Shown: in pieces, positions 3,790 through 42,812 of the stretch
How positions within the stretch are numbered: position 1 is the stretch's first letter
Layout: every line of letters begins with the position of its first letter
NCBI GenBank assembly: GCA_021160725.1
Contig: JAGHCA010000005.1
Span: 1-44,193, forward strand
DNA: 44,193 bases
Direction of reading: 5' to 3'
From: Dehalococcoidia bacterium
GTDB lineage: Bacteria > Chloroflexota > Dehalococcoidia > GIF9 > AB-539-J10
Notes under the pieces: model-generated
What the model was told of the DNA's origin: nothing
Seen by the model: only the letters and a program-made list of their open reading frames with translations
Database searches by the model: none
Program-made: the position numbers and the translations under genes

Positions 3790-4305
3790 TTACTTGAATC
3801 TTCTCACTTGGAAGCGATAGAGCTTAACTGGCTCACCGACTGATATGCCTGCCTTGAGCCGGCAAATGGTTATCTGATCTTCGACACTATCTACGCCCTC
3901 CAAATCGGGCAGCAGAAGACCTCTTTTCCAGCCACTCTCCACGATAACGCCGTATTTTTTGTGGTCAAGCTGGCTGATATCTGCGACTGGCTCAGGTTCA
4001 GTGAGGATATCTACGTTATATTCCAGGGCATCAAGCTCAGATGCAGTCACCGGAGGAAAGCGAGGATCCTTGGTAGATGAGCTAATAGCATTGGCAATGA
4101 TTTCTTCAGCAACATTTTCCCTGGTTGGCTCGAAGGTGCCGATGCATCCTCTTAATTGTCCATGCTTGTGAAGGGAAACAAAAACCCCCGCCCGCTCTTT
4201 CATTTCTGGAGTTAACTCCTTCGGCTCGGGTATTTTGCCCTCCCGGACATAGCTTTCCACCGTTTCTTTAGCCAGTTTCACTACAGGATGAAGTTCCCCT
4301 GCCAT
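3790..4305 (-). CDS. amrA: AmmeMemoRadiSam system protein A (AMMECR1 domain)
   Basis: AMMECR1-family protein of about 171 aa, whose biochemical role is unknown, encoded beside a MemoRadiSam radical SAM enzyme as in many bacteria and archaea. The family motif [19 protein letters not shown] (about 95-113 of the chosen protein) is intact, and [10 protein letters not shown] precedes it. The open frame extends upstream to 4419. The extra 38 residues (with [15 protein letters not shown]) come from an intergenic repeat, and ATG at 4305 has GGGAGGGAG about 6 nt upstream, so that start is preferred. The radical SAM gene lies about 290 nt upstream on the same strand. The third partner, the Memo-like protein B, is absent from this window. 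Confidence 0.88.
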
Positions 4306-4365
4306 AAGCATCTCCCTCCCCACTCCCTTCCCTCTCCCCAGATGGGAGAGGATCAAGGTGAGGGT
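4306..4365. repeat. GC/CT-rich hairpin repeat upstream of amrA
   Basis: Low-complexity C/T-rich sequence with an 8-bp stem: CCTCTCCC at 4331-4338 pairs with GGGAGAGG at 4344-4351 around a 5-nt loop. Read on the minus strand it is open and adds a Leu/Gly-rich tail to the amrA frame, the usual appearance of a dispersed intergenic repeat translated in frame. It also supplies the purine-rich GGGAGGGAG that serves as ribosome-binding site for amrA. Confidence 0.55.
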
Positions 4366-4428
4366 GGCAACCTCCGTAGTTGTCCTGATTACATCGGGGC
4401 TGCCCAATAAAATTGACAAACACTGCTT

Positions 4429-4572
4429 AACTATCTCCCTTAAGATTAAGGATTCTCTCTTCCAACATCCCTCTTAAAATAAGGGAGATAAAGGGGGTTA
4501 TGAGTGTTTCTCAGCCACCATCAGCTATTTATTCATAACTCTCCCTTCCCCCTCTTATCTTAAGAGGGGGAC
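4429..4572. repeat. Cluster of CCCTCTTA-type hairpin repeats
   Basis: Intergenic block between amrA and amrS containing three related small hairpins. CCTTAA/TTAAGG has a 2-nt loop near 4438-4451. An imperfect CCCTCTTA/TAAGGG lies near 4469-4485. A perfect 10-bp stem with a 3-nt loop (CCCCCTCTTA against TAAGAGGGGG) spans 4548-4570. The last one lies 21 nt after the amrS stop on the minus strand and could act as a transcription end, but no T-run follows it. A related hairpin occurs at 37357-37375. No coding sequence is seen here. Confidence 0.6.
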
Positions 4573-4591
4573 CTTAAATAGGAATCTAAAA

Positions 4592-5602
4592 TCAAGTGCG
4601 AAAATTAAGCTCAGCTCCACAGAATTTACACTTCGAGCTATCTAGCCCTACTACCTCAGTGTCATAGCCAATACGACGAACGACTGTTTTGTCACAAGAA
4701 TAACACACGGTGTTTTCATACTCGTGCCCCGGCACATTGCCCAGATAGACAAATTTCAGCCCGGCGTCTTTTCCAATCTTATATATCCTTTCTAAAGTGG
4801 ATAACGGGGTGGCTGACAGGTGGGTAAATTCGTGCAGGGGGTGGAAACGGGTTACATGCCAGGGGGTAAGTTCGCCCAGGTTATCTCGAATCCAAGTAGC
4901 AATGTTCCTGAGCTGCTCTTCATCGTCGTTCATCGTCGGAATGATATTGGTCACCACCTCAACATGCATATTCCATTTTTCTTTAGCTCGCCTGGCGACG
5001 TCCAAAATGCCTTGCCACTGAGGAATCTTGGCTAGCTGCCGATAGAACCCGTCGGTGAAGCCCTTGACATCCACCCTCCAGGCATCAAGCCAGGGACCTA
5101 TGGTATCCAGAGCCTCGGGCGTGGCATAGCCATTGGTCACGTACACAGTGTAGAGATTATTTTCTTTAGCCAGCCTGGCTGAATCCAGGGTGTATTCAAA
5201 CCAAACCGTCGGCTCATTGTAGGTCCAGGCAATGCCTGCGCAATTGTATCTCTTGGCTAGCTCTATCTCTTTTTCCGGGAGCAGTTGCTGTGAATCTCGT
5301 GGCATATCCACGCAGGAAATTTCCCAGTTCTGGCATCCCTTGCAGTGGAAATTACATCCCCAGGTGCCTAGTGAGAAGGCATAGGTGCCGGGGAAGAAAT
5401 GAAACAGAGGTTTCTTCTCAATATGGTCGGCCGCCATCGAGGATATCTCGGCATAATTCATGCTATACAGCTTACCATCCCGATTGATGCGCATGCGGCA
5501 GAGGCCAACCATACCTGGATTGATAAGGCACCTCCACTGGCAAACATGACACCTCACGCGGCTGCCAGGGAGTGTCTCATAGAGCATCGCCTCCCTTTCC
5601 AT
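4592..5602 (-). CDS. amrS: AmmeMemoRadiSam system radical SAM enzyme
   Basis: Radical S-adenosylmethionine enzyme of the pyruvate-formate-lyase-activating-like family (336 aa), substrate unknown. The 4Fe-4S cluster motif is CNFHCKGCQNW in the context SLGTWGCNFHCKGCQ (about residue 78-92). An N-terminal CHVCQWRCLINPG...GLC cluster of cysteines and a C-terminal CYSCDKTVV...CKFCG pair suggest extra metal sites. WTYNEPTVWFEY and YVTNGYATPEAL are typical of this subfamily. The start ATG at 5602 follows a GGAA-type ribosome site; an internal ATG five codons later is possible. It precedes amrA on the same strand, separated by about 290 nt of repeats. Confidence 0.9.
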   Translation of the reverse strand: MEREAMLYETLPGSRVRCHVCQWRCLINPGMVGLCRMRINRDGKLYSMNYAEISSMAADHIEKKPLFHFFPGTYAFSLGTWGCNFHCKGCQNWEISCVDMPRDSQQLLPEKEIELAKRYNCAGIAWTYNEPTVWFEYTLDSARLAKENNLYTVYVTNGYATPEALDTIGPWLDAWRVDVKGFTDGFYRQLAKIPQWQGILDVARRAKEKWNMHVEVVTNIIPTMNDDEEQLRNIATWIRDNLGELTPWHVTRFHPLHEFTHLSATPLSTLERIYKIGKDAGLKFVYLGNVPGHEYENTVCYSCDKTVVRRIGYDTEVVGLDSSKCKFCGAELNFRT

Positions 5603-5944
5603 CCCTTATCATTATATCATTATAGGCTGCTTCGATATAATCACAGTGCGGAATATCATTTCCCACTAAATCCCAAACACAAATACCAGACAATACCAAA
5701 GACTAAAATACTAATGACCGCGCAATAGGCACTAAGTCATTGCATGGAATTCCCCCCTTTTTGGCATTCTGGGTCCCGTTTTATGGGAACGGTGCAACCT
5801 CGCGGTGGGGCATGAAATTGCCACGCTTCGCTGGCAATGGCGCGGGTGCAGCAAAAGCCCAAAACGATTTGGAAATTTGAATTTTGATATTTGGATTTGG
5901 TTAGTCCCTGATTAAACCGTGGGTCGCATTTTGGAATCTGGAAT
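5603..5944. repeat. Gene-free interval with nested dispersed repeats
   Basis: No gene is seen in these 342 nt. The left half of the AT-rich repeat (CACTAAATCCCAAACACAAA through CTAATGACC) lies at 5663-5720. Its right-half sequence (GGAAATTTGAATTTTGATAT and following) lies at about 5866-5910. Between them is a GC-richer element (about 5740-5862) with a 7-bp stem ATTGCCA/TGGCAAT at 5817-5823 and 5832-5838 around the loop CGCTTCGC. In the copies at 18.6 and 31.5 kb the two halves are close together, so this copy looks split by the second element. Confidence 0.55.
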
Positions 5945-7522
5945 CTAGTTCTTGTCGATATACACCCTTCTTAGGTCGGGAATACCCAGAGGACTGAGTT
6001 CGTAGCCTTTGATATAGGGCTCCACCAGGATATAGTTGGCACCATGGAACAGGGGGAGGCAAGGAGCATCATCAACTACTAGTTGTTCAGCTTGCTGGTA
6101 CATAGCCAGGCGGAGGGCCTCATCTTGTTCTATAGCTGCCTGGTCAAGCAAAGCATCCAGGGTGGAGTTGCTGTATTCGGAGAGGTTAACTTCGCTTCCG
6201 GTATAAAAGAGAACATCCAGGAAATTATGTGGGTCGGGGTAGTCAGCTATCCAGCCCATTACGAACATCTCATCCTTCTCTTGTTTCAGGTTATAAAGGA
6301 AATTCTCTGATTCTAGTTGCCTCACCGAGATTTCCACGCCGAGATTTTGCTGCCATTCCTGGATGATGGCACCCAGGTAACTGGGAATGCTATTGCCATA
6401 GCCATTAACAGTCAGGGTGATGGGGGGCAAGTTCGAGGCATCTCCGTATTTCGAGTCGGCGATGAGCTCTTTCGCCTTTTCCACATCGTAGTCCAGTCCT
6501 TCGAGAGCTTCGTTATAGCCGGGCATGCCCGGCGGCAAAATACCACCAGCTTCACTTATCATGTCCCTTAATATCACCTTAGCGATGTGCTCTTTATCCA
6601 CAGCGTGACAGAAGGCACGACGGACATTGACGTCGTCGAAAGGAGGTTGGGCAGTGTTGAAGCCAATATAGTAAAGGCTAAGCTCGGGGGTTACGGCTAA
6701 CTCGGAATAAAATGGGCCAGTCTCATCACTCGCTCGGTCAATGTAGGGTAAGTAAACAGAAACGACATCAATTTGCCCTGTCTCGTACAGGGTCATGGGC
6801 ATACCAGACAGAAGATAGACGACCTGTTCCAGTTTAGCCGGCTCACCGTAATAAATCTGGCTGCGTTCCAAAATCAACCGCTCTCCTGCTTGCCATTCCT
6901 TTAGCTTAAATGGTCCTGTCCCGTCTGGCTCTCGCCACCAGTCCTCCCCGGATTCCGCATTAGCCCTATCAACCACAAAGGCGGTAGGATAAGCCAGCTT
7001 GTTCAAGAAGTAAGCCTTGGGGGCATCAATGGTAACCCGAAGTGTATAGTCATCAAAGACTTCAACCCCTGAGATTTCCTCCGCTTCTCCCGCCAGCATA
7101 TCCTTAACACCAACAATATCGCCCAGATACGTAGCTGCTGTGCCAGAGCCAGTATCGGGGTGGCAGGCTCGCTCCCAGGAGTATTTGAAATCGGCGGCTT
7201 TGACTTCCCTACCGCTATGAAATTTCACCCCCTGGCGCAGGTGGAAGGTGTATGTTTTGCCATCGGGGCTTGTCTCCCAGCTCTCAGCAATATCGGGCAC
7301 TATGTTCAGCTCATGGTCAAGACGAACCAAGCCAGAGAAGATATGCATGACGTAGGTATGAGAAGACATGTCGGCAGAAATCGCCGGATCAAGCGTTATG
7401 GGGCCGCTATCCCAGAGGCGGAGGACGCCCTGGCTGCTGAAAGGCAGGCAGGCAGTTGAAGGTAGAGAAAATAAGGCGAAGACGAGAAGACATAATAATG
7501 CAAGCTGCCAGATTCTTTTCAT
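5945..7522 (-). CDS. Peptide/oligopeptide ABC transporter substrate-binding protein (family 5)
   Basis: Extracytoplasmic solute-binding protein of the DppA/OppA type (SBP family 5), 525 aa. The N-terminus is a signal sequence (KRIWQLALLCLLVFALFSL) followed by PSTAC. Cys25 could be lipidated, although the -3 position is Ser rather than Leu. After this come LDPAISADMSSHTYVMHIFS, the SWETSPDGKTYTFHLRQGVK motif of the family, and FNTAQPPFDDVNVRRAFCHA. The start overlaps the DUF1893 stop by 4 nt (ATGA). No permease or ATPase genes are present nearby, so this is an orphan binding protein that must work with a transporter encoded elsewhere, or act as a sensor. Its ligand cannot be deduced. Confidence 0.9.
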   Translation of the reverse strand: MKRIWQLALLCLLVFALFSLPSTACLPFSSQGVLRLWDSGPITLDPAISADMSSHTYVMHIFSGLVRLDHELNIVPDIAESWETSPDGKTYTFHLRQGVKFHSGREVKAADFKYSWERACHPDTGSGTAATYLGDIVGVKDMLAGEAEEISGVEVFDDYTLRVTIDAPKAYFLNKLAYPTAFVVDRANAESGEDWWREPDGTGPFKLKEWQAGERLILERSQIYYGEPAKLEQVVYLLSGMPMTLYETGQIDVVSVYLPYIDRASDETGPFYSELAVTPELSLYYIGFNTAQPPFDDVNVRRAFCHAVDKEHIAKVILRDMISEAGGILPPGMPGYNEALEGLDYDVEKAKELIADSKYGDASNLPPITLTVNGYGNSIPSYLGAIIQEWQQNLGVEISVRQLESENFLYNLKQEKDEMFVMGWIADYPDPHNFLDVLFYTGSEVNLSEYSNSTLDALLDQAAIEQDEALRLAMYQQAEQLVVDDAPCLPLFHGANYILVEPYIKGYELSPLGIPDLRRVYIDKN

Positions 7523-7967: not shown

Positions 7968-8657
7968 TTAAAACAGACCCTTATCCTTCAAGCTTAGGTA
8001 GCTCTTGTCACAAACAACGATGTGGTCAAGGACATCAATGCCTATGATTTCGCCAGCTTTAGCCAGCCGCTTGGTTAGCTCGACATCCTCTTTCGAGGGC
8101 TCGGGGTCGCCTGAAGGATGATTATGTACAAAGATTACCGAAGCAGCGGAGGAAGAAACCGCTTCCTTAAACGCCTCTCGAGGATGAACAATGCTTGTAT
8201 CCAGGCTGCCTATGGAAACTGGCATGCAGTTTATTAACCTGTTTCTAGTATCAAGGCAAAGTACCAAAAAATGCTCCTTCTTCTTGCCTTTCAACTGGCT
8301 CCTTACTATGGCAACCACATCCTCCGGGGACAGGAGCGCCGGCCTGGGTTTCTCACCGACATCGGCTTCCAGCCTTTTACTCAATTCAAAGGCAGCTTTA
8401 ATCTGTGCAGTCTTGGCCGGTCCCATGCCACTTATCTGCATCAACTCCTCCACAGAGGCATTGGCAATGCCTCTGAGATTGCCAAATCGACTTAACAGTT
8501 TCTGGCTGGTCACCATGACTGATTCACCTTTGATGCCTCGACCCAGTATTAAGGCTAAAATTTCCTGGGCGGATAGAGCTTCGCTGCCCAATTTTAGCAG
8601 CCTCTCCCTGGGACGCTCACTGAGGGGCAAATCGCGCACAGTAAACGAGTTCTTCAT
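7968..8657 (-). CDS. radC: RadC family protein (UPF0758, JAB/MPN domain)
   Basis: Full-length RadC (229 aa): an N-terminal helix-hairpin-helix part with ISGMGPAKTAQIKAAFEL (about 75-92), then a C-terminal JAB1/MPN-like metalloprotease-fold domain with HNHPSGDPEPSKED. His178, His180 and Asp184 form the expected metal site, with VLDHIVV near residue 209. The name implies DNA repair, but experiments on the family have not fixed a repair role, so the activity is open. It is in a closely spaced minus-strand series (21 nt after the peptidase gene and 23 nt before DUF1893). A second protein made only of the N-terminal domain is encoded at 41468-41761. Confidence 0.92.
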   Translation of the reverse strand: MKNSFTVRDLPLSERPRERLLKLGSEALSAQEILALILGRGIKGESVMVTSQKLLSRFGNLRGIANASVEELMQISGMGPAKTAQIKAAFELSKRLEADVGEKPRPALLSPEDVVAIVRSQLKGKKKEHFLVLCLDTRNRLINCMPVSIGSLDTSIVHPREAFKEAVSSSAASVIFVHNHPSGDPEPSKEDVELTKRLAKAGEIIGIDVLDHIVVCDKSYLSLKDKGLF

Positions 8658-32752: not shown

Positions 32753-34609
32753 TCACGTGCCTTTTCTTTTGCTTCTTGACTTTATCCTATCTTCTACCGC
32801 TGCAATATTTAGCCTCGTCGACAATATCACATCCGGGTTCAAAGAAATTGAATCTATTCCACATTCAACTAAGTAGTCGGCAAATTCGGGGAAATCACTC
32901 GGTGCCTGCCCACATATCCCTACCTTTCTCCTTGGTTTATGACGGTGTGCAATATCTATGACTTGTTTTACCAGTCTTTTTACCGCTTCATTCCTTTCAT
33001 CAAATATGTGTGCCACGAGTTCGGAATCCCTATCTAAACCAAGAGTTAACTGTGTTAAGTCGTTCGACCCTATGCTGAACCCGTCAAACACACTGGCGAA
33101 CTCTTCAGCTAAAATCACATTTGACGGTATCTCGCACATCACATACACTTCCAATTCGTTTTCTCCTTGCGCTAAGCCAAACTCTGCCATGGCTTTTATC
33201 ACTTTTCTCCCTTCCTCTGGCGTTCGGCAAAAAGGAACCATCACCTTCACATTGGTCAATCCCATTACATCTCTTACTTTCTTTATTGCCTGGCATTCTA
33301 AACCAAAGGCAGGCTTGAATTTTGCATCATAATAGCGAGATGCTCCTCTCCAGCCTATCATTGGGTTTCTTTCCTCCGGCTCATAGCGATATCCACCGAC
33401 TAAATTGGCATATTCATTTGTCCTGAAGTCTGAAAACCTGACGATGACCTCGTTGGGATAAAACCCTGCCGCGATCTTCGCTATTCCCATTGCCAGGGTG
33501 TCAATGAAAAACTCCCTTTTATCCTCATATGATGCGCTTCTCTTATCTATCTCTTCAATTACTTTTGCCAATTTCTCGTCAGTACGTGCTGCTTTTTTCA
33601 GTTCAGCATATTCTATAAGCGCCATAGGATGTATGCCGATATAAGAGTTGATGATGAACTCTTCTCGGGCTAATCCCACACCGTCATTGGGAATTTGGCT
33701 TTGAATGAATGCACCATCGGGAATGCCGAAGTTCATCATTATTTTGGTATCGGGTCTGGGGAGCTTACTCACCTCGATTTCCTCTATCCTGTATTTCAAT
33801 TTTCCTTCGTATATCTTACCCCTACCCTGGGAACAATCTACAGTAACTTGCTTGACCTTCCTCAAGACCTCTGTTCCTTTGCCTGTGCTAATTACACAGG
33901 GTACTCCCAGCTCCCGACTGACGATAGCTGCATGGCATGTCCTGCCGCCTTTGTTTGTAACTATGGCGCTAGCAACCTTCATTATCGGTTCCCAATCAGG
34001 ATCTGTCATATCAGTAACTAAAACTTGACCCTTCTTGAATTTGTGGATTTCACTACTACTTTCTATTATATTCACCTCGCCTTGTCCTATCCTTGTACCT
34101 ACTGCTTCCCCTGTCAGCAGTAGTTTTCCCGCTTCTTCAAGTACATAAGTCTTGAGTGAAGCCATGTCCATTTGTGAATACACTGTCTCAGGACGGGCCT
34201 GGACTATGAAAAGTTCTCCGGTTACCCCATCCTTTGCCCATTCAATATCCATGGGCGTGTCATAATGTTCTTCTATAATACAAGCCCATCTGGCGAGAGT
34301 TAGAACCTCATTGTCATTCAACGCGAATTTTCTTTGCTCCCCAACCTTGACTTCTTGTTGCTCCGTGCCAGTTCCATCTCCCTTGTACACCAACTTCTTT
34401 TCCTTCGTCCCCAGCTTCTTCTCCACAATGGGACTGAACCCTTCCTTCAGAGTGGGCTTGAAAACGTAAAACTGGTCAGGGTTAACCACTCCCTGTACCA
34501 CATTCTCTCCCAGCCCGTAGGCAGCGGTTATGTACACCACGTCTCTGAAACCTGATTCCGGGTCCATGGAAAATATGACACCGGAGCAGGCTAAATCAGA
34601 ACGAACCAT
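32753..34609 (-). CDS. ppsA: Phosphoenolpyruvate synthase, C-terminal fragment
   Basis: The larger part (618 aa) of a PEP synthase that is interrupted by one TAA. It contains the end of the ATP-binding domain, the phosphohistidine swivel domain (NKGGRTCHAAIVSRELGVPC, His226 of the fragment) and the TIM-barrel PEP/pyruvate site ending with KVGICGQAPSDFPEFADYLV, whose Cys is catalytic. The ATG at 34609 lies two codons after the stop of the N-terminal fragment. GGTGGGGGTG just upstream could support re-initiation. Alone it lacks most of the ATP-grasp fold and would not phosphorylate pyruvate. Confidence 0.85.
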   Translation of the reverse strand: MVRSDLACSGVIFSMDPESGFRDVVYITAAYGLGENVVQGVVNPDQFYVFKPTLKEGFSPIVEKKLGTKEKKLVYKGDGTGTEQQEVKVGEQRKFALNDNEVLTLARWACIIEEHYDTPMDIEWAKDGVTGELFIVQARPETVYSQMDMASLKTYVLEEAGKLLLTGEAVGTRIGQGEVNIIESSSEIHKFKKGQVLVTDMTDPDWEPIMKVASAIVTNKGGRTCHAAIVSRELGVPCVISTGKGTEVLRKVKQVTVDCSQGRGKIYEGKLKYRIEEIEVSKLPRPDTKIMMNFGIPDGAFIQSQIPNDGVGLAREEFIINSYIGIHPMALIEYAELKKAARTDEKLAKVIEEIDKRSASYEDKREFFIDTLAMGIAKIAAGFYPNEVIVRFSDFRTNEYANLVGGYRYEPEERNPMIGWRGASRYYDAKFKPAFGLECQAIKKVRDVMGLTNVKVMVPFCRTPEEGRKVIKAMAEFGLAQGENELEVYVMCEIPSNVILAEEFASVFDGFSIGSNDLTQLTLGLDRDSELVAHIFDERNEAVKRLVKQVIDIAHRHKPRRKVGICGQAPSDFPEFADYLVECGIDSISLNPDVILSTRLNIAAVEDRIKSRSKRKGT

Positions 34610-34612
34610 CTT

Positions 34613-35176
34613 TTACACCCCCACCGATAGGTAAACGCTGAGGTGGTCAAATCCTTTATCTACACGGTAGGAGATTGACCGGTTTGTGAACAAAGATGAA
34701 AAGCAGTCCATGACCTTTCCCACAAGTTCCTCTTCTCCCCGCACATTCAGGTAAGTCGTCTGTTGACCAGCAAATGAAGCAGTGGGCAGGTCTTCAGCAG
34801 TGGCACTGCTTCTGACTGCAACATCAACGTTCCTGCCGTACTTTCTTTCCATCTCGCGATAAGCAGCTCTTATTTCCTCCTCCAATTCTTTAGGGCAGTC
34901 AGAATTTGCTATTAAATCCCTTATCTTTTCGCCCCTCTCTGCCAGGTTTTCCATATTATATGTATCCAGGCCCGCTAAAATGTCCTTGATTTTTGGTTTT
35001 ATGCCTGCTTTCTCTAGCACATACTTATATGCTTCGGCAGTAATGGCGAATCCCGAGGGTACATTTACCCCTTTCTTATCCAGATTTCTTATCATTTCAC
35101 CAAGAGATGCGTTTTTACCACCGACTAAAGCTACATCTCCTGCTCCAAGTTCTTCAAACCATTTCACAAATTTCAT
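34613..35176 (-). CDS. ppsA: Phosphoenolpyruvate synthase, N-terminal fragment (premature stop)
   Basis: First 187 aa of PEP synthase: KFVKWFEELGAGDVALVGGK, NASLGEMIRNL and the ATP-binding VAVRSSATAEDLPTASFAGQ followed by QTTYLNVRGEEE. The frame reads SVGV-stop-KMVRSDLACSG, and related enzymes have Gln at the stop position, so a single CAA-to-TAA change explains it. Both pieces are in the same frame, and joined they give 807 residues, a normal length. GGAGGG precedes the ATG. The gene is either a recent pseudogene, a read-through/re-initiation case, or a sequencing error. Confidence 0.85.
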   Translation of the reverse strand: MKFVKWFEELGAGDVALVGGKNASLGEMIRNLDKKGVNVPSGFAITAEAYKYVLEKAGIKPKIKDILAGLDTYNMENLAERGEKIRDLIANSDCPKELEEEIRAAYREMERKYGRNVDVAVRSSATAEDLPTASFAGQQTTYLNVRGEEELVGKVMDCFSSLFTNRSISYRVDKGFDHLSVYLSVGV

Positions 35177-36425: not shown

Positions 36426-37178
36426 TCAGGTCTGGCTGCTCAGCCTTTCTAGAGTAGTCTCAGCAACATCAATATTGGAAAACACACGCTGCACATCTTC
36501 TAATTCTTCCAGCTGGTCAAGGAAATTCAGGGCTTGAATTGCTTTGTTTTCTTCCAGCAGCACCGTAGTCTTAGGTGTTAGGGAGAGCTCTGCCGAAATC
36601 ACATGTTCTTTCTCCTCAATAACCTTTCTCACTTCTTCTAAATCCTCAGGTTGCGTGTAAATCTCTACATAACCTTTCTCGGTCTTGACATCTTCAGCCC
36701 CGGCATCAATAGCTTGTAGCGCTATTTCTTCAGCATCTTTGGCATCGGTTTCTACGGTGATTACTCCTCTATTCTCGAAGAGCCAGGAGACGCAGCCACT
36801 CTCTCCGAGATTACCACCGTAGCGGGTGAAGAGTCGGCGCACCTCCTGGACGGTGCGATTACGGTTATCGCTCAACGCTTCTACCATGACTGCTATGCCG
36901 TTTGGACCATAGCCTTCGAGTTTCATTTCAATTAAGGCAGATGCATCAGACTCGCCACTGCCCCGCTTTATGGCTCTCTCGATGTTCTCCGAAGGCATGT
37001 TATTATCACGGGCTTTCTGAACTGCTAAACGTAGCTGTAAATTGCTTTCTAAATTGGCTCCGCCTTGACGAACAGCAACCGTGATTTCTCGAGCAAGCTT
37101 GGTAAACAATTGCCCGCGCCTGGCATCAGCTACCCCCTTTTGTCGCTTAATCTGCGCCCACTTAGAATGTCCTGACAT
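36426..37178 (-). CDS. yebC: YebC/PmpR family protein (TACO1-like)
   Basis: Conserved cytoplasmic protein of 250 aa; family members are described as transcription regulators and, more recently, as factors helping translation through proline-rich stretches. The N-terminus SGHSKWAQIKRQKGVADARR and GQLFTKLAREITVAVRQGG are diagnostic, with YGPNGIAVMVEALSDNRNRT and GCVSWLFENRGVI in the middle. AAAGGA lies 5 nt before the ATG, and a TATAAA immediately before that may be the -10. It leads the ruvC-ruvA operon. Confidence 0.95.
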   Translation of the reverse strand: MSGHSKWAQIKRQKGVADARRGQLFTKLAREITVAVRQGGANLESNLQLRLAVQKARDNNMPSENIERAIKRGSGESDASALIEMKLEGYGPNGIAVMVEALSDNRNRTVQEVRRLFTRYGGNLGESGCVSWLFENRGVITVETDAKDAEEIALQAIDAGAEDVKTEKGYVEIYTQPEDLEEVRKVIEEKEHVISAELSLTPKTTVLLEENKAIQALNFLDQLEELEDVQRVFSNIDVAETTLERLSSQT

Positions 37179-37557: not shown

Positions 37558-37778
37558 TCAAAGCTCTAGGAATTTTTCTATGTTTAATCCAGCCTGGCGT
37601 AGAATAGCTCGTGGCGTTCCTTCAGGTAAATCGCCGGGGTGGTGAGGTACTGTAGTACGAGCGCGGGTTTGAGGATTCCACCATATTTACTTCCTTTCGC
37701 CTGACGATCGAAGATGAAACCTGCCTGTCTTAACTTACGGATGACTTCGTCTGCGCTGAAGCCAGCTAGCCTTCCCAT
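37558..37778 (-). pseudogene. hicA: HicA toxin, frameshifted at its catalytic His
   Basis: HicA family mRNA interferase whose reading frame breaks after residue 31. The start GRLAGFSADEVIRKLRQAGF and FDRQAKGS are normal; the frame then runs out to a stop at 37584. In another frame the genuine remainder continues (WNPQTRARTTVPHHPGDLPE, then GTPRAILRQAGLNIEKFLEL) to TGA at 37560-37558. Restoring four bases (CATG) between 37689 and 37688 would give GSHEIWW, the standard GSH motif, so the lesion removes the catalytic histidine as well as shifting the frame. It overlaps the hicB stop by 1 nt. Confidence 0.85.
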
Positions 37779-38023
37779 CAGGATACGCTTACTGGAATAC
37801 GGGCTTCGCCGCTTGCTGGAGCAGCAGCTTGTAGCTTAGGTGGAAGCCCATCACCGTGTTCCAAATAGGACTCTATAAGCTTACGAGCCACATCCTGTGC
37901 AATCTCCAGGGTTTCTGTGACAGTTCGTCCTTGAGCTACCAAGCCAGGCAGCTCTTCACTGGTAGCCAAAAACCCACCTTCTGGTAAGGGCTCCAAGTGA
38001 ACCTCCAGAAATATTTCCCTCAT
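37778..38023 (-). CDS. hicB: HicB family antitoxin
   Basis: Short HicB antitoxin of 81 aa with the partial RNase-H-like fold: IFLEVHLEPLPEGGFLATSE followed by ELPGLVAQGRTVTETLEIAQ, the family pattern, and a short tail without an obvious DNA-binding domain. GGAGGATAA lies just before the ATG. It precedes and overlaps hicA by 1 nt, the hicB-first order. Since the toxin is broken, this gene may be a leftover or may now protect against other HicA toxins. Confidence 0.88.
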   Translation of the reverse strand: MREIFLEVHLEPLPEGGFLATSEELPGLVAQGRTVTETLEIAQDVARKLIESYLEHGDGLPPKLQAAAPASGEARIPVSVS

Positions 38024-38231: not shown

Positions 38232-41200
38232 TCACGAACCCATGATTTGTTTTACCAAAGCGTCTATTTGCCCAAGCTCCTTTTTTAGCTCGGCTTTTAT
38301 TAATCTGCGGGTGTGGCCGATGCTGCGGGATTTTGCCAGTTGCGGGAGCAATTGCTCGACCTTTCGGGTGCATTGCTCGCCGAGTTGGGATAAAGCTCTA
38401 TGGTTTTCGTCTGATGAATTATATTGAGGAATGGGAATTTCTAAAACCTTTTTGTGAATGTCCCTGGGACCCCATAATCCACGGCTCTGCATTGGTTTCA
38501 GGAGTTCATCCACAATGGGGGAATTGAGAACAGTAGCCAAATAATAAGCCTCTTCTTTATCGTCAGTATCGAAATAGTACTCCTTGGATTCAGCCACAAA
38601 CCCCTGTATTTCAATACTTTGCCCCTCCACCTCAAAGCTGACGTGTTTGTCCTCAACCACACAGCTACAGAGGTAGGTGGCTGAGGTGGGATAGAGGACT
38701 TTGTATTTTGCCAGGCGATTCTGAGTCGATAATTTCTTTCGGTAATCAAGCCATTCTTGGACGTTCATTCTCTCAGCCTTCTCCCCTCTCCGTTTCCCCC
38801 ACTCGCCCTGAGCCCTCTCCAGCCAGTTTGCTAGATTCAGAAAGCCCTGACTGCGGGCTTCATCAGCACTGAGAATCTTGAAATGCTTACCCGATGGCAG
38901 AAGGGGCAAAACCACCAGCCTGAAATCCAGTCGGCCAAAGGGAACAATGTCCGTCGATAACAAGGTAGCATAAAGGAAATCCCCCTCGATGTTCCCCTCC
39001 AGCCTTAAGCCCTTATAAGCTGTCTTAGCCTCTTTTTGAGCTCTTTCTGTGGTGGAAACATAAGGCAGCGAGGGGTCGAAACCGAAAACAGGATGTGACT
39101 TTACATCTACAAACCAGAGAGAGCGAGGAACAATAGTTGCACCTTGCTTGAAGTAAGGTTGGTAGAAGCTTCTCAAACCTGTGGTAGGCTTCACCTTTAG
39201 ACTGCTCAGGAAACTTCGCTTTCCCACCTGGGTGACAAAGAGTTCCTCTAAGGTAATGGCGAGTGCCTGCTGTGCCTCCCTTAGAGAGGAGTTCTTGCGC
39301 TCCAGCTTCCCAGAAAATACTTGGCATTTCAGAGGATGCTCGGTCTCAATTCCTCTTTTACCGAAGAAGACGCAGGCGGGAACATTGAATAACGGCTCTA
39401 CCTCCTCCAAATCCCAGATCTCCTCGAAACCGAGGTCGAGCGAGAAATAGGAACGGCGGAAATTATAGTGCTGGTCGGAAGAAAATACGCTTCTGGGTAG
39501 TAGGAAGCCGATAGTTCCTCCTTTCCTAAGATAGAGGTCGGCAGTCCTGAGAAAGAAGAGCGTTGCCAACTCCATGTGTGTTATTAGTTCCGCTTTACCT
39601 GAAAGAAGTCTGTAGTCCTCCACGATTTGCCGCTTGAGAAATTTCTGGTATTCACCCTTCTCCACGTAACGGTAGGAAAGCCAGGGAGGATTGCCCAGAA
39701 CTACATCGAAGTTCCCTTTGAGGAACAAAGGTTTATACAGGTTCTTAAGGATGAAAGCCCAGATGCTGTCCCGCCTTTCCTCTATGAGCTCTTTCATTGC
39801 TACAGCCAGGTCATAAAGGGCAAGAAAGAGGGCCTTATCCGCGGCCATTTTTGGAGATGCTTTCACTATGAAGTTGAGAAATGTGCTTCTATCTCCTCCC
39901 TTCTTGCCAGCGAAATTCCGGGCAAATTCCTTTGATGCCTCAATAGCCTCGTCGTAAAGCCGTGGGTCATGAGTGAGGACTTCAGGAATTATGATTCTCT
40001 TGCCGTCAATTTCCAATTTGAAGCCGGGCAGCGGTGCACCCATCTCCATCTGTCCCTCCATCTGGGGAAGCTTGATGGAGTCGGCGAGGTAAATGGGGAG
40101 TGCTATAGATTTTCTTCTCCTCTTGAAGAGGTCTCCCAAAGCGAGCAGGTAATTGGTCTTGGAGATGATTACTGCTAGTGGATGAATATCTATTCCCACC
40201 ACATTCTCCAGGATATGCTCCAGAGTTTCCCGAGAATCTCCCAGAATATCCCGCTTGTACTTTATGGTCATGTAGAGAAAGGTTCCCGAGCCGCAGGCGG
40301 GGTCAAGAACAGAGAATCGGGGATTCTCCTCCAGTGCCTTTTCCACCATGCGATGTGCAAGCCAATCTGGAGTGTAGTATTCTCCCAAATCATGGCGTGC
40401 TTCTGGGTCAACCAGTTCCTGATAGAGTGCCTTGAGAACATCCTCGAAAAGCTCCTTCAAGTTGTATCTTAAGAGCAGGCTCAAGAGTTTCTTGGAGATA
40501 TCAAAACCGACGGCTCTCACTTTTTCTCGGGCGATCCAGGAGAAAAAGTCCTCTTCGAGGAAATTGGCGATGCGCTGTCCTCGGAAGAACTCTCCATTTA
40601 AAATGCTAGATATTTCCTCGCTTGAAGGAATTGAACTTTTCGCAGTGAGTCGTGCCCAAGCAATTAGTTTTGCCAGTGTTGCCAGATAAGTATGCCTGAG
40701 AAAGAGGTCTTTGCTTCCAATGATGCTTCCGTAAGTAACACGAAGGTACCTCTCCCAGTTTTCATAGATGACCTGAAAGTCGCTTCTACTTTCCACCTGT
40801 TTTAGGGCTTCCTTCAGCAGTCGAAAGGAAAAGAGAAAGGCAGGGCTGTGCATGCCGAAGTCCTGTTCAAATTCTTCAGTTCGCGGTGGGAGGATTCTTT
40901 CCCTGAAGAAGTATCTGTCAAGCCAGAAATATGCTTGGTAAGGTTCTGGAGTTGGCAGTATGAGCTCATCAACCTTTTCTAGCACTATGTCTTCTGGGAG
41001 CAAGGGCTCAGTCAAAGGTTTTTCGGCACCGGGTGAGAAAACCTGGAAGTTTATCCCATCCGCTGCCATGCAGAGGTAATTTATCTTTCTCTCCTCTTCC
41101 TCAGACCAGAGACAGGCGATATATCTTTTGAGCTGCTCTTTAGCCTCTGAAAGCGTCTTCCCTAAGTCCCTCTCAAACTCGATTACCAAATTTCCATAGA

Positions 41201-41471
41201 GGTTATCTACCCGCCCCTTTAACACAATATCCTTACCCTTGCTCTTTACATATTTTTCGACACCGCGGAGATAATCCTCTACAAATTTTGTGTTCACATC
41301 GCCGAATATATCCTTCAGAAGCAGTAGAAATCTCTGGGTTTTGGCCGATTCTGAGCTTAGATGAGAAACCTCCTCAACGTAGTTCTGGATATCCGCCGAT
41401 TTCTGAACCTCAAAGAGGTCACCAAATCGTGATGGTTTCTCAGGTATCTTGGGCAGTTTTCCTCTATTCAT
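38232..41471 (-). CDS. Eco57I-like N6-adenine DNA methylase / type IIG restriction protein
   Basis: Large protein of 1079 aa with an N-terminal region, a central adenine methylase and a C-terminal target-recognition part. Methylase motif I is SVLDPACGSGTFLYM (about 387-401), preceded by HDLGEYYTPDWLAHRMV. Motif IV is VVLGNPPWLSY (NPPW 594-597). Residues 81-117 (LKGRVDNLYGNLVIEFERDL and on) resemble a PD-(D/E)XK nuclease strand pair with Asp89 and Glu98, but Glu100 replaces the usual Lys, so cleavage is uncertain. No separate restriction or specificity gene is adjacent. The start overlaps the stop of the RadC-like gene by 4 nt. Likely a self-contained defence or phase-marking enzyme. Confidence 0.88.
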   Translation of the reverse strand: MNRGKLPKIPEKPSRFGDLFEVQKSADIQNYVEEVSHLSSESAKTQRFLLLLKDIFGDVNTKFVEDYLRGVEKYVKSKGKDIVLKGRVDNLYGNLVIEFERDLGKTLSEAKEQLKRYIACLWSEEEERKINYLCMAADGINFQVFSPGAEKPLTEPLLPEDIVLEKVDELILPTPEPYQAYFWLDRYFFRERILPPRTEEFEQDFGMHSPAFLFSFRLLKEALKQVESRSDFQVIYENWERYLRVTYGSIIGSKDLFLRHTYLATLAKLIAWARLTAKSSIPSSEEISSILNGEFFRGQRIANFLEEDFFSWIAREKVRAVGFDISKKLLSLLLRYNLKELFEDVLKALYQELVDPEARHDLGEYYTPDWLAHRMVEKALEENPRFSVLDPACGSGTFLYMTIKYKRDILGDSRETLEHILENVVGIDIHPLAVIISKTNYLLALGDLFKRRRKSIALPIYLADSIKLPQMEGQMEMGAPLPGFKLEIDGKRIIIPEVLTHDPRLYDEAIEASKEFARNFAGKKGGDRSTFLNFIVKASPKMAADKALFLALYDLAVAMKELIEERRDSIWAFILKNLYKPLFLKGNFDVVLGNPPWLSYRYVEKGEYQKFLKRQIVEDYRLLSGKAELITHMELATLFFLRTADLYLRKGGTIGFLLPRSVFSSDQHYNFRRSYFSLDLGFEEIWDLEEVEPLFNVPACVFFGKRGIETEHPLKCQVFSGKLERKNSSLREAQQALAITLEELFVTQVGKRSFLSSLKVKPTTGLRSFYQPYFKQGATIVPRSLWFVDVKSHPVFGFDPSLPYVSTTERAQKEAKTAYKGLRLEGNIEGDFLYATLLSTDIVPFGRLDFRLVVLPLLPSGKHFKILSADEARSQGFLNLANWLERAQGEWGKRRGEKAERMNVQEWLDYRKKLSTQNRLAKYKVLYPTSATYLCSCVVEDKHVSFEVEGQSIEIQGFVAESKEYYFDTDDKEEAYYLATVLNSPIVDELLKPMQSRGLWGPRDIHKKVLEIPIPQYNSSDENHRALSQLGEQCTRKVEQLLPQLAKSRSIGHTRRLIKAELKKELGQIDALVKQIMGS

Positions 41472-41761
41472 TTGAGTTCTCCGTGAATAACACGCCGGGC
41501 GATTTCGAAGGCGGCGGCGATGCGAATAATTTTAGCATCGCCAAGCCCTTTTATATTCAAGAGCTTTCCCAAAGGCTGGTTAGCCATGCCCTTGAAGCCG
41601 CCGAACCGTTGCAGAATCTCCTCAGCAATCTTTTCCGCTGGTCTGCCTTTAATCCCCGGAGCAATGAGGATGGACAGAAGCTCAGCATCGGTCAATGTTT
41701 CCGCACCAAGCTCTCGGAGCTTGCCACCGGGGTGCTGCCATATTGGGGATTTCCTGTTCAC
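41468..41761 (-). CDS. Stand-alone RadC N-terminal (UPF0758) domain protein
   Basis: Protein of 97 aa corresponding only to the N-terminal domain of RadC: GGKLRELGAETLTDAELLSI, then LIAPGIKGRPAEKIAEEILQ and the hairpin-helix LLNIKGLGDAKIIRIAAAFE. It aligns with residues ~15-95 of the RadC encoded at 7968-8657, but lacks the JAB metal-binding domain altogether. The frame ends naturally in the ATGA shared with the methylase start, so it is not simply cut off. Coupling to the methylase suggests a DNA-binding or regulatory partner; the function is unknown. Confidence 0.85.
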   Translation of the reverse strand: MNRKSPIWQHPGGKLRELGAETLTDAELLSILIAPGIKGRPAEKIAEEILQRFGGFKGMANQPLGKLLNIKGLGDAKIIRIAAAFEIARRVIHGELK

Positions 41762-41783: not shown

Positions 41784-42812
41784 TCACTTTGCTATGCTTA
41801 GCAACTCCTTTCCATAGGGCTCTCTTATTATACCTTTTTCGGTGATTATGGCAGTTATATAACTATGGGGAGTGACGTCGAAGGCAGGGTTGGCTGCTGT
41901 TATGCCTTGGGGAGAAATGGGTACTCCCTGGACATGAGTTACCTCTTCAGGGCTTCGCTCTTCAATGGGGATTTTGTCTCCCGAGCTTAAGGAAAGGTCA
42001 ATAGTGCTGGTGGGAGCAGCGACATAAAAGGGGATTTTACTTTCTTTAGCCAGTACCGCCAGGGTATAGGTGCCGATTTTATTGGCGACATCGCCATTGG
42101 CAGCAATCCTGTCGGCGCCGACAATGACGCAATCTATTTTCCTCTGCTGTATGAAATAGCCAGCCATGGAATCGGTAATTAAAGTTACCGGGATGCTTTC
42201 TTGCATTAGTTCCCAGGCAGTAAGCCTGGCTCCCTGGAGAAGGGGACGAGTTTCCGTAGCAAAGACGCTAACTTTCTTTCCCTGCTCTTTAGTAGCTTTT
42301 ATGACACCCAGGGCAGTGCCATAGCCAGCGGTGGCTAGAGGACCGGCGTTACAATGAGTAAGCAAGGTGAAACCATCTTTGATGAGCTCGGCTCCCAGCT
42401 GACTGAGCTGCCTGGTTGCGGTTTCTTCTTCCTGGTGAATCCGCTTTGCTTCATTGACAAGCGAATTTTTTATTTCGGCAATGCCATCTCCTCTGGCAGC
42501 CTTCTTCATCCTCTCAATAGCTTGAAAAAGGTTGACCGCGGTAGGCCTGGAGGCAGCAAAAGTTTTTATGACCTGATTCAATTGAATAAGGAATTCATCC
42601 TTGTTTTCTGTCTTAATATCTGATGCCCCCAGAGCTATACCGTAGGCGGCAGCGACCCCGATGGCTGGCGCCCCGCGGACCTTCAATTCCTTAATAGCCA
42701 GAACTACATCGTGGTAATTATCCAGGTCGGCAAAGATTTGCTGGTGGGGAAGCTTGCTCTGGTCCAGTATCCTTAGCCTGCCGCCGAGCCATTCTATTGC
42801 TTTAGCTGCCAT
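41784..42812 (-). CDS. mtnA: S-methyl-5-thioribose-1-phosphate isomerase
   Basis: Isomerises methylthioribose-1-phosphate to methylthioribulose-1-phosphate in the methionine salvage pathway; 342 aa. Typical motifs are IKELKVRGAPAIGVAAAYGI, the catalytic Cys in LLTHCNAGPLATAGYGTALG and the catalytic Asp in GADRIAANGDVANKIGTYTL. The C-terminus has IPIEERSPEEVTHVQGVPIS. The ATG at 42812 has no Shine-Dalgarno; a TATACT on the minus strand (42825-42820) ends 7 nt before it. No other mtn gene is present. An eIF2B-like paralogue is unlikely given the intact active site. Confidence 0.95.
   Translation of the reverse strand: MAAKAIEWLGGRLRILDQSKLPHQQIFADLDNYHDVVLAIKELKVRGAPAIGVAAAYGIALGASDIKTENKDEFLIQLNQVIKTFAASRPTAVNLFQAIERMKKAARGDGIAEIKNSLVNEAKRIHQEEETATRQLSQLGAELIKDGFTLLTHCNAGPLATAGYGTALGVIKATKEQGKKVSVFATETRPLLQGARLTAWELMQESIPVTLITDSMAGYFIQQRKIDCVIVGADRIAANGDVANKIGTYTLAVLAKESKIPFYVAAPTSTIDLSLSSGDKIPIEERSPEEVTHVQGVPISPQGITAANPAFDVTPHSYITAIITEKGIIREPYGKELLSIAK

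Follow-up and report, generated by a model that had tools for sequence, protein, structure and literature searches.

A stand-alone RadC N-terminal domain paired with type IIG-like restriction-methylases that share an N-terminal tail

A RadC N-terminal domain gene overlapping a restriction-methylase gene

RadC, a protein found widely among bacteria, lacks a settled function. Its family has a JAB domain and an uncertain role; members are found in mobile elements and also fused to other proteins (PMC5512222, PMC11981726, PMC12458937). The window, that is, the whole 44,193-nucleotide stretch of Dehalococcoidia DNA analysed here (contig JAGHCA010000005.1), carries a gene for the N-terminal half of RadC directly ahead of a large restriction-type gene, between an mtnA-like gene and yebC:

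41784..42812, minus strand: mtnA-like gene, the upstream border of an exchange site
41468..41761, minus strand: stand-alone RadC N-domain protein (UPF0758_N, helix-hairpin-helix type), 97 aa, with the signature WxHPGGKL
41468..41471, minus strand: ATGA stop/start overlap of the short gene and the enzyme gene, putative translational coupling
38232..41471, minus strand: type IIG-like restriction-methylase (family 1), 1079 aa, by Pfam and PADLOC
41424..41459, minus strand: N-terminal tail K5-F16, KLPKIPEKPSRF, shared with the family-2 enzymes linked to the short gene; candidate docking peptide
41172..41207, minus strand: PD-(D/E)xK-like nuclease motif D89-x8-E98-F-E100, with E replacing the usual K
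40278..40307, minus strand: methylase motif I, LDPACGSGTF, residues 389-398
39681..39692, minus strand: methylase motif IV, NPPW, residues 594-597
38235..39374, minus strand: C-terminal third, the putative target-recognition region by the type IIG layout
36426..37178, minus strand: yebC, the downstream border of the exchange site, followed by ruvC and ruvA
7968..8657, minus strand: ordinary full-length RadC (UPF0758_N and JAB), outside the unit

The short gene starts with GTG, and its TGA stop shares the ATGA with the ATG of the enzyme gene. UPF0758_N spans residues 9-79 (Pfam, E 4e-16, above the gathering cut-off) and is the only domain found; Pfam detects no JAB domain in the 97 residues, the chain stopping after the N-domain, and the NCBIfam cut-offs for full-length RadC are not reached. 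These matches and coordinates confirm an earlier note on this DNA, which had read here a 97-residue UPF0758 domain without JAB, joined through ATGA to a 1079-residue methylase; the separate full RadC that it had placed elsewhere in the window likewise carries both of its domains in Pfam. The short protein and this full RadC are 37% identical over 89 aa. A profile of the short protein matches the repeats of topoisomerase V that are of the helix-hairpin-helix (HhH) type (summed E 6e-7), and HHH models, including HHH_5, match the same region in full RadC, so that the short protein is assigned to the HhH domains, a DNA-binding type. Purifying selection acts on the gene (dN/dS about 0.1), and the nearest relative unit, in another genome, has the identical 4-nt overlap and a short protein that is 91% identical.

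The 1079-aa enzyme matches N6_Mtase (5.7e-13) and Eco57I (2.2e-11) in Pfam and the type IIG REase-MTase model of PADLOC (2.4e-85), and it has the N6-methylase core with motif I and NPPY/W that marks type IIG enzymes. Like enzymes of the BpuSI, DrdV, BseRI and MmeI kind, it is a single chain with a putative nuclease-type N-domain, an N6-methylase core and a C-terminal part; it differs from them in the extra N-terminal tail and the small RadC-N gene upstream, which mark the short-linked subset as a whole, and in having D-x8-E-x-E, a family-1 trait, where they have E-x-K. The methylases of MADS, BREX and DISARM share the N6-methylase core with weak scores, but the window enzyme lies far below their curated cut-offs (58.7 bits against 720 for MAD2, by which MADS is recognised), and none of their partner genes adjoins it.

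Two families of enzymes accompany short genes, and they can be aligned with each other in the methylase core only: family 1 comprises the window-type enzymes and family 2 those of the L042 type. Their N-terminal regions have no significant profile likeness (probability 2.5%), although the weak alignment still superposes the tails. In family 2, the D, E and K of the nuclease domain are invariant, and this domain is modelled confidently, with the type IIG enzyme BpuSI as its best match among solved folds (E 4.8e-4). The full-length model of the window enzyme is poor (pLDDT 55); its D-x8-E-F-E appears, from the motif, to be a BamHI-like variant of the nuclease site. In the class survey, every short-linked family-1 enzyme has E-F-E, and all 20 other family-1-like enzymes have E-F-K. 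The K-to-E change was considered as a marker of the pair and rejected, because plasmid enzymes without a short gene, from Methylocystis and Cupriavidus (L315, L316), also have E-x-E; the change is therefore a clade trait.

A small HicB/HicA-like gene pair, with a HicA match below the Pfam cut-off, lies between the methylase gene and yebC (37584-38023).

Recurrence of the pair across phyla

Among 84 genomes of the order, the short form is present in the window genome and 13 others; these 13 short proteins are 69-91% identical to it, each in a small open frame with a methylase-type gene adjoining, and full RadCs score far below the short forms. A wider search of a one-genome-per-species collection was seeded with the window protein and covers its clade rather than all RadC proteins reduced to the N-domain. 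It yielded 80 related loci, all with the stand-alone short form, whose frames are only 96-159 aa long (one, L091, with an internal stop). By their MAG labels, they belong to Chloroflexota, Nitrospirota, Nitrospinota, Thermodesulfobacteriota, Planctomycetota, Bacteroidota, WOR-3 and others. Across the phylum (400 genomes), members of the short clade score at least 131.9 bits and all other RadC hits at most 71.4, and in a tree that includes the window protein and omits L091, a branch with 100% support splits 80 short proteins from 15 RadC N-domains. The short proteins carry the clade signatures WxHPGGKL and NQP.

Downstream DNA is informative at 74 of the 80 loci and too short at six. A type IIG-type enzyme of family 1 or 2 follows the short gene at 57 of the 74, overlapping it or lying within 15 nt at 43, 446-1483 nt away at 11, and as a fragment at three. 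Another restriction system follows at seven: an N4/N6 methylase with a DpnII-like nuclease (L055, L083), a DrmMI/IIG-like gene (L063, L100), a type ISP-like gene (L073), a type I system (L106) and, as the weakest case, a ResIII helicase (L094). At the remaining 10, no restriction-modification-type gene was found within the downstream DNA examined. At control loci with full RadC, a methylase relative occurs at one of 40 (L020), with flanks of only about 1.5 kb. Upstream neighbours of the short gene vary between phyla.

The link that the earlier note had proposed between short UPF0758 proteins and Eco57I methylases is thus borne out by the neighbourhood survey, which finds the pair across phyla, and relatives have the short form instead of a full RadC in this position; neither of the outcomes that the note had set against its proposal, a short domain without recurrent linkage or a full RadC in relatives, was therefore found. 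The partners extend beyond the Eco57I type named there to two IIG families and sometimes to other restriction-modification types. The note's proposal is supported in part, and its further suggestion, a partner of defence systems that would bind DNA structures, is a candidate role. The short-protein tree implies eight or nine changes of partner, which is only suggestive of frequent partner switching because the tree is poorly resolved.

The spacers of 446-1483 nt hold small genes, often toxin-antitoxin-like. The 11 loci with such genes between the short gene and the tailed enzyme (L039, L044, L045, L053, L054, L059, L067, L071, L075, L080, L086) are mostly from Nitrospirota and Nitrospinota, and the interposed genes include ParE, PIN, PHD-like and DUF4258 types. 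An origin of the short protein in mobile elements was considered and rejected: the protein is absent from 72,556 plasmids and 50,697 phages, and a single partial match was seen in viral contigs.

Exchange of the enzyme at the mtnA-yebC site

The mtnA site holds the short gene with a family-1 enzyme in the window and in G041, the short gene with a family-2 enzyme in G035, G031 and G005, and no unit in some relatives. In G040, a different, tail-less IIG enzyme stands there, and the short gene ahead of it is interrupted by a stop and has lost most of its length; in G013 and G075 only 25-32 codons of the short gene are left, with no adjoining enzyme. These few cases fit a dependence of the short gene on the tailed enzyme in this lineage. 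Remnants reduced to the 5' end of the short gene were recorded at G013:C18:33453-33554, G075:C9:179526-179606 and L222.

An N-terminal tail common to both enzyme families

Short-linked enzymes of both families open with a tail of about 11 residues, [ST]K[LI]xxKxx[RK][IV][PST]. A first automatic motif search had returned the family-2-specific SPFDTTxHKT, which lies further inside the chain and is missing from family 1; the tail segment ahead of it was picked by eye after both families had been viewed, and the test was then redone with a profile built from family 2 alone and applied to family 1. All 13 family-1 partners were scored, with a mean of 19.05 and a lowest value of 7.1, against -0.6+-1.0 for shuffled N-termini (maximum 2.2 of 300), a maximum of 3.5 among 23 relatives without a short gene, and a 99th percentile of 8.9 in 637 other genes. 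These 23 relatives (20 family-1-like and three family-2-like, from the class survey) have no short gene in the upstream DNA examined, and none of them has the tail; nor does any of six plasmid enzymes, from a plasmid collection that also yielded no short protein.

In many family-2 genes, the S/T-K pair of the tail can follow simply from a stop codon that overlaps it. With the stop-forced columns removed, family 1 still scores 13.5, against -0.4+-0.8 for shuffles (maximum 2.6 of 1000), and the relatives without a short gene average 1.1, with a maximum of 9.8. The tail is also retained in enzymes that lie 0.4-1.5 kb away from the short gene, and its codons are not conserved between enzymes, which indicates that the peptide is what is kept. 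In a family-2 model, the tail is predicted to be disordered (pLDDT <50, residues 1-13) ahead of a well-folded nuclease domain. The family-1 enzymes that carry the tail may descend from a single event, and the seven short genes beside other restriction-modification types adjoin genes without a recognised tail.

Short genes without an adjoining enzyme

The partnership is not exclusive, as some lineages hold an orphan short gene under purifying selection. Orphans of Desulfobacterota/delta lineages (L078, L090, L093, L110 and L048/L052) have dN/dS-type ratios of 0.08-0.16. Family-1 and family-2 enzymes were not found in most orphan-bearing genomes, many of which are incomplete MAGs; G703 has a second, complete unit of short gene and family-2 enzyme besides its orphan. 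The complete 1.68-Mb chromosome G697, which carries the orphan L052, contains no restriction-modification gene from the search panel and no convincing tail-bearing protein, the best match being a 104-aa frame unlike any restriction-modification enzyme. Since these orphans are selected without an enzyme, the short protein can also be maintained for reasons other than this partnership. Four of them (L078, L090, L093, L110) are conserved ahead of a gene for a PLP-dependent enzyme, with no restriction-modification gene adjoining.

A candidate docking subunit and competing explanations

We tentatively favour a two-protein, type IIG-like restriction-modification enzyme in which the short protein would be a portable accessory subunit. 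Because the genes overlap, synthesis of the short protein would precede that of the enzyme and be tied to it, and the short protein would bind the flexible tail ahead of the nuclease domain; its helix-hairpin-helix would add to the complex a further hold on DNA, one independent of sequence and possibly directed at particular structures, and this hold would enable or gate cleavage. We regard this role, a docking subunit that lends the enzyme a HhH-type hold on DNA and thereby gates or enables cleavage, as having a little less than an even chance of being right. The broader proposal, that the RadC N-domain is a portable docking subunit recruited in many phyla by unrelated restriction enzymes through a short N-terminal peptide, is plausible but rather doubtful. 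If docking requires the tail only, the short gene could remain in place as one enzyme behind it replaces another. The orphans under purifying selection argue against an obligate subunit role, and the seven short genes beside other restriction-modification types, which have no recognised tail, likewise count against the docking reading.

The short protein could instead be a cap or immunity protein that binds the tail or the nuclease domain and, like an antitoxin, restrains cleavage until the host DNA is methylated. Its gene stands first and usually overlaps that of the enzyme, the shared tail sits directly ahead of the nuclease, toxin-antitoxin genes are common inserts, and a tail-less enzyme is accompanied by a dead short gene; yet the domain is of a DNA-binding HhH type that is not known as a nuclease inhibitor, and orphans are selected with no enzyme to restrain, so that we consider this reading unlikely. 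More improbable still is a controller-like function, in which the short protein or its frame would regulate transcription or translation of the enzyme and the tail would be a by-product of the coupled start. The gene order and the ATGA or 8-20-nt overlaps do suit translational coupling, and the S/T-K pairs that overlapping stops can force in many family-2 genes also speak for this function, but no helix-turn-helix regulator domain of the controller (C) protein kind was found in the short protein, and the tail persists at spacings of 0.4-1.5 kb and in columns outside the overlap, without conservation of its codons.

That one site carries differing enzymes, and that varied restriction-modification types and toxin-antitoxin genes follow the short gene at some loci, could also be expected of a landing platform or hitch-hiker, a selfish or neutral gene that marks a place of exchange; enzymes would recombine in behind it, and the tail would be what is left of the crossover region. 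Such a marker is a poor candidate, however, given that the short protein is under strong purifying selection, tail DNA whose synonymous sites have changed although the peptide is kept, and upstream neighbours that vary between phyla. Least probable, in our estimate very much so, is a role of the short protein in DNA metabolism of its own, for example in the protection or repair of self-cut DNA, with the restriction-modification link secondary: the selected orphans and the homology to the RadC N-domain speak for it, but it leaves the tail common to two enzyme families unexplained, and the short gene decays in relatives that lack a tailed enzyme.

Relation to known systems

Some type II systems likewise consist of two genes, one of them for a distinct specificity or controller subunit; BcgI with its S subunit and the C-protein systems are examples. 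In these, too, a small gene is coupled to a large enzyme gene, but the small protein of the window is not an S subunit, nor is it a controller with a helix-turn-helix. The short protein resembles the RadC (UPF0758) family in its N-terminal UPF0758_N/HhH domain and differs from it in lacking JAB, in forming a clade with its own signatures and in its linkage to restriction-modification genes. In the open-access literature searched, no description was found of a RadC N-domain beside a type IIG enzyme, nor of any partner of this domain. The parts all belong to known kinds; the combination and the shared tail appear to be new.

If the docking reading holds, it would give the N-terminal half of RadC its first concrete function and would define a new two-part type IIG layout, with an exchangeable enzyme and a DNA-gripping subunit that stays in place. 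Some "single-chain" type IIG enzymes in databases would then be lacking a small subunit, which could explain failed expression of such enzymes on their own. A candidate docking peptide common to two enzyme families turns the question of RadC into a test on one peptide and one 97-aa protein.

Two further observations concern other genes. At L226 (G003:C111), a full-length RadC gene (3825-4586) overlaps a 596-aa methylase-type gene (4583-6373), and a gene for a probable specificity subunit comes next; RadC is complete here, so that its pairing with restriction-modification genes is of another kind. In the window, a PPDK-like gene (32753-35176) is split into two ORFs (34613-35176 and 32753-34609) with 3 nt between them, which may reflect a frameshift or an assembly error.
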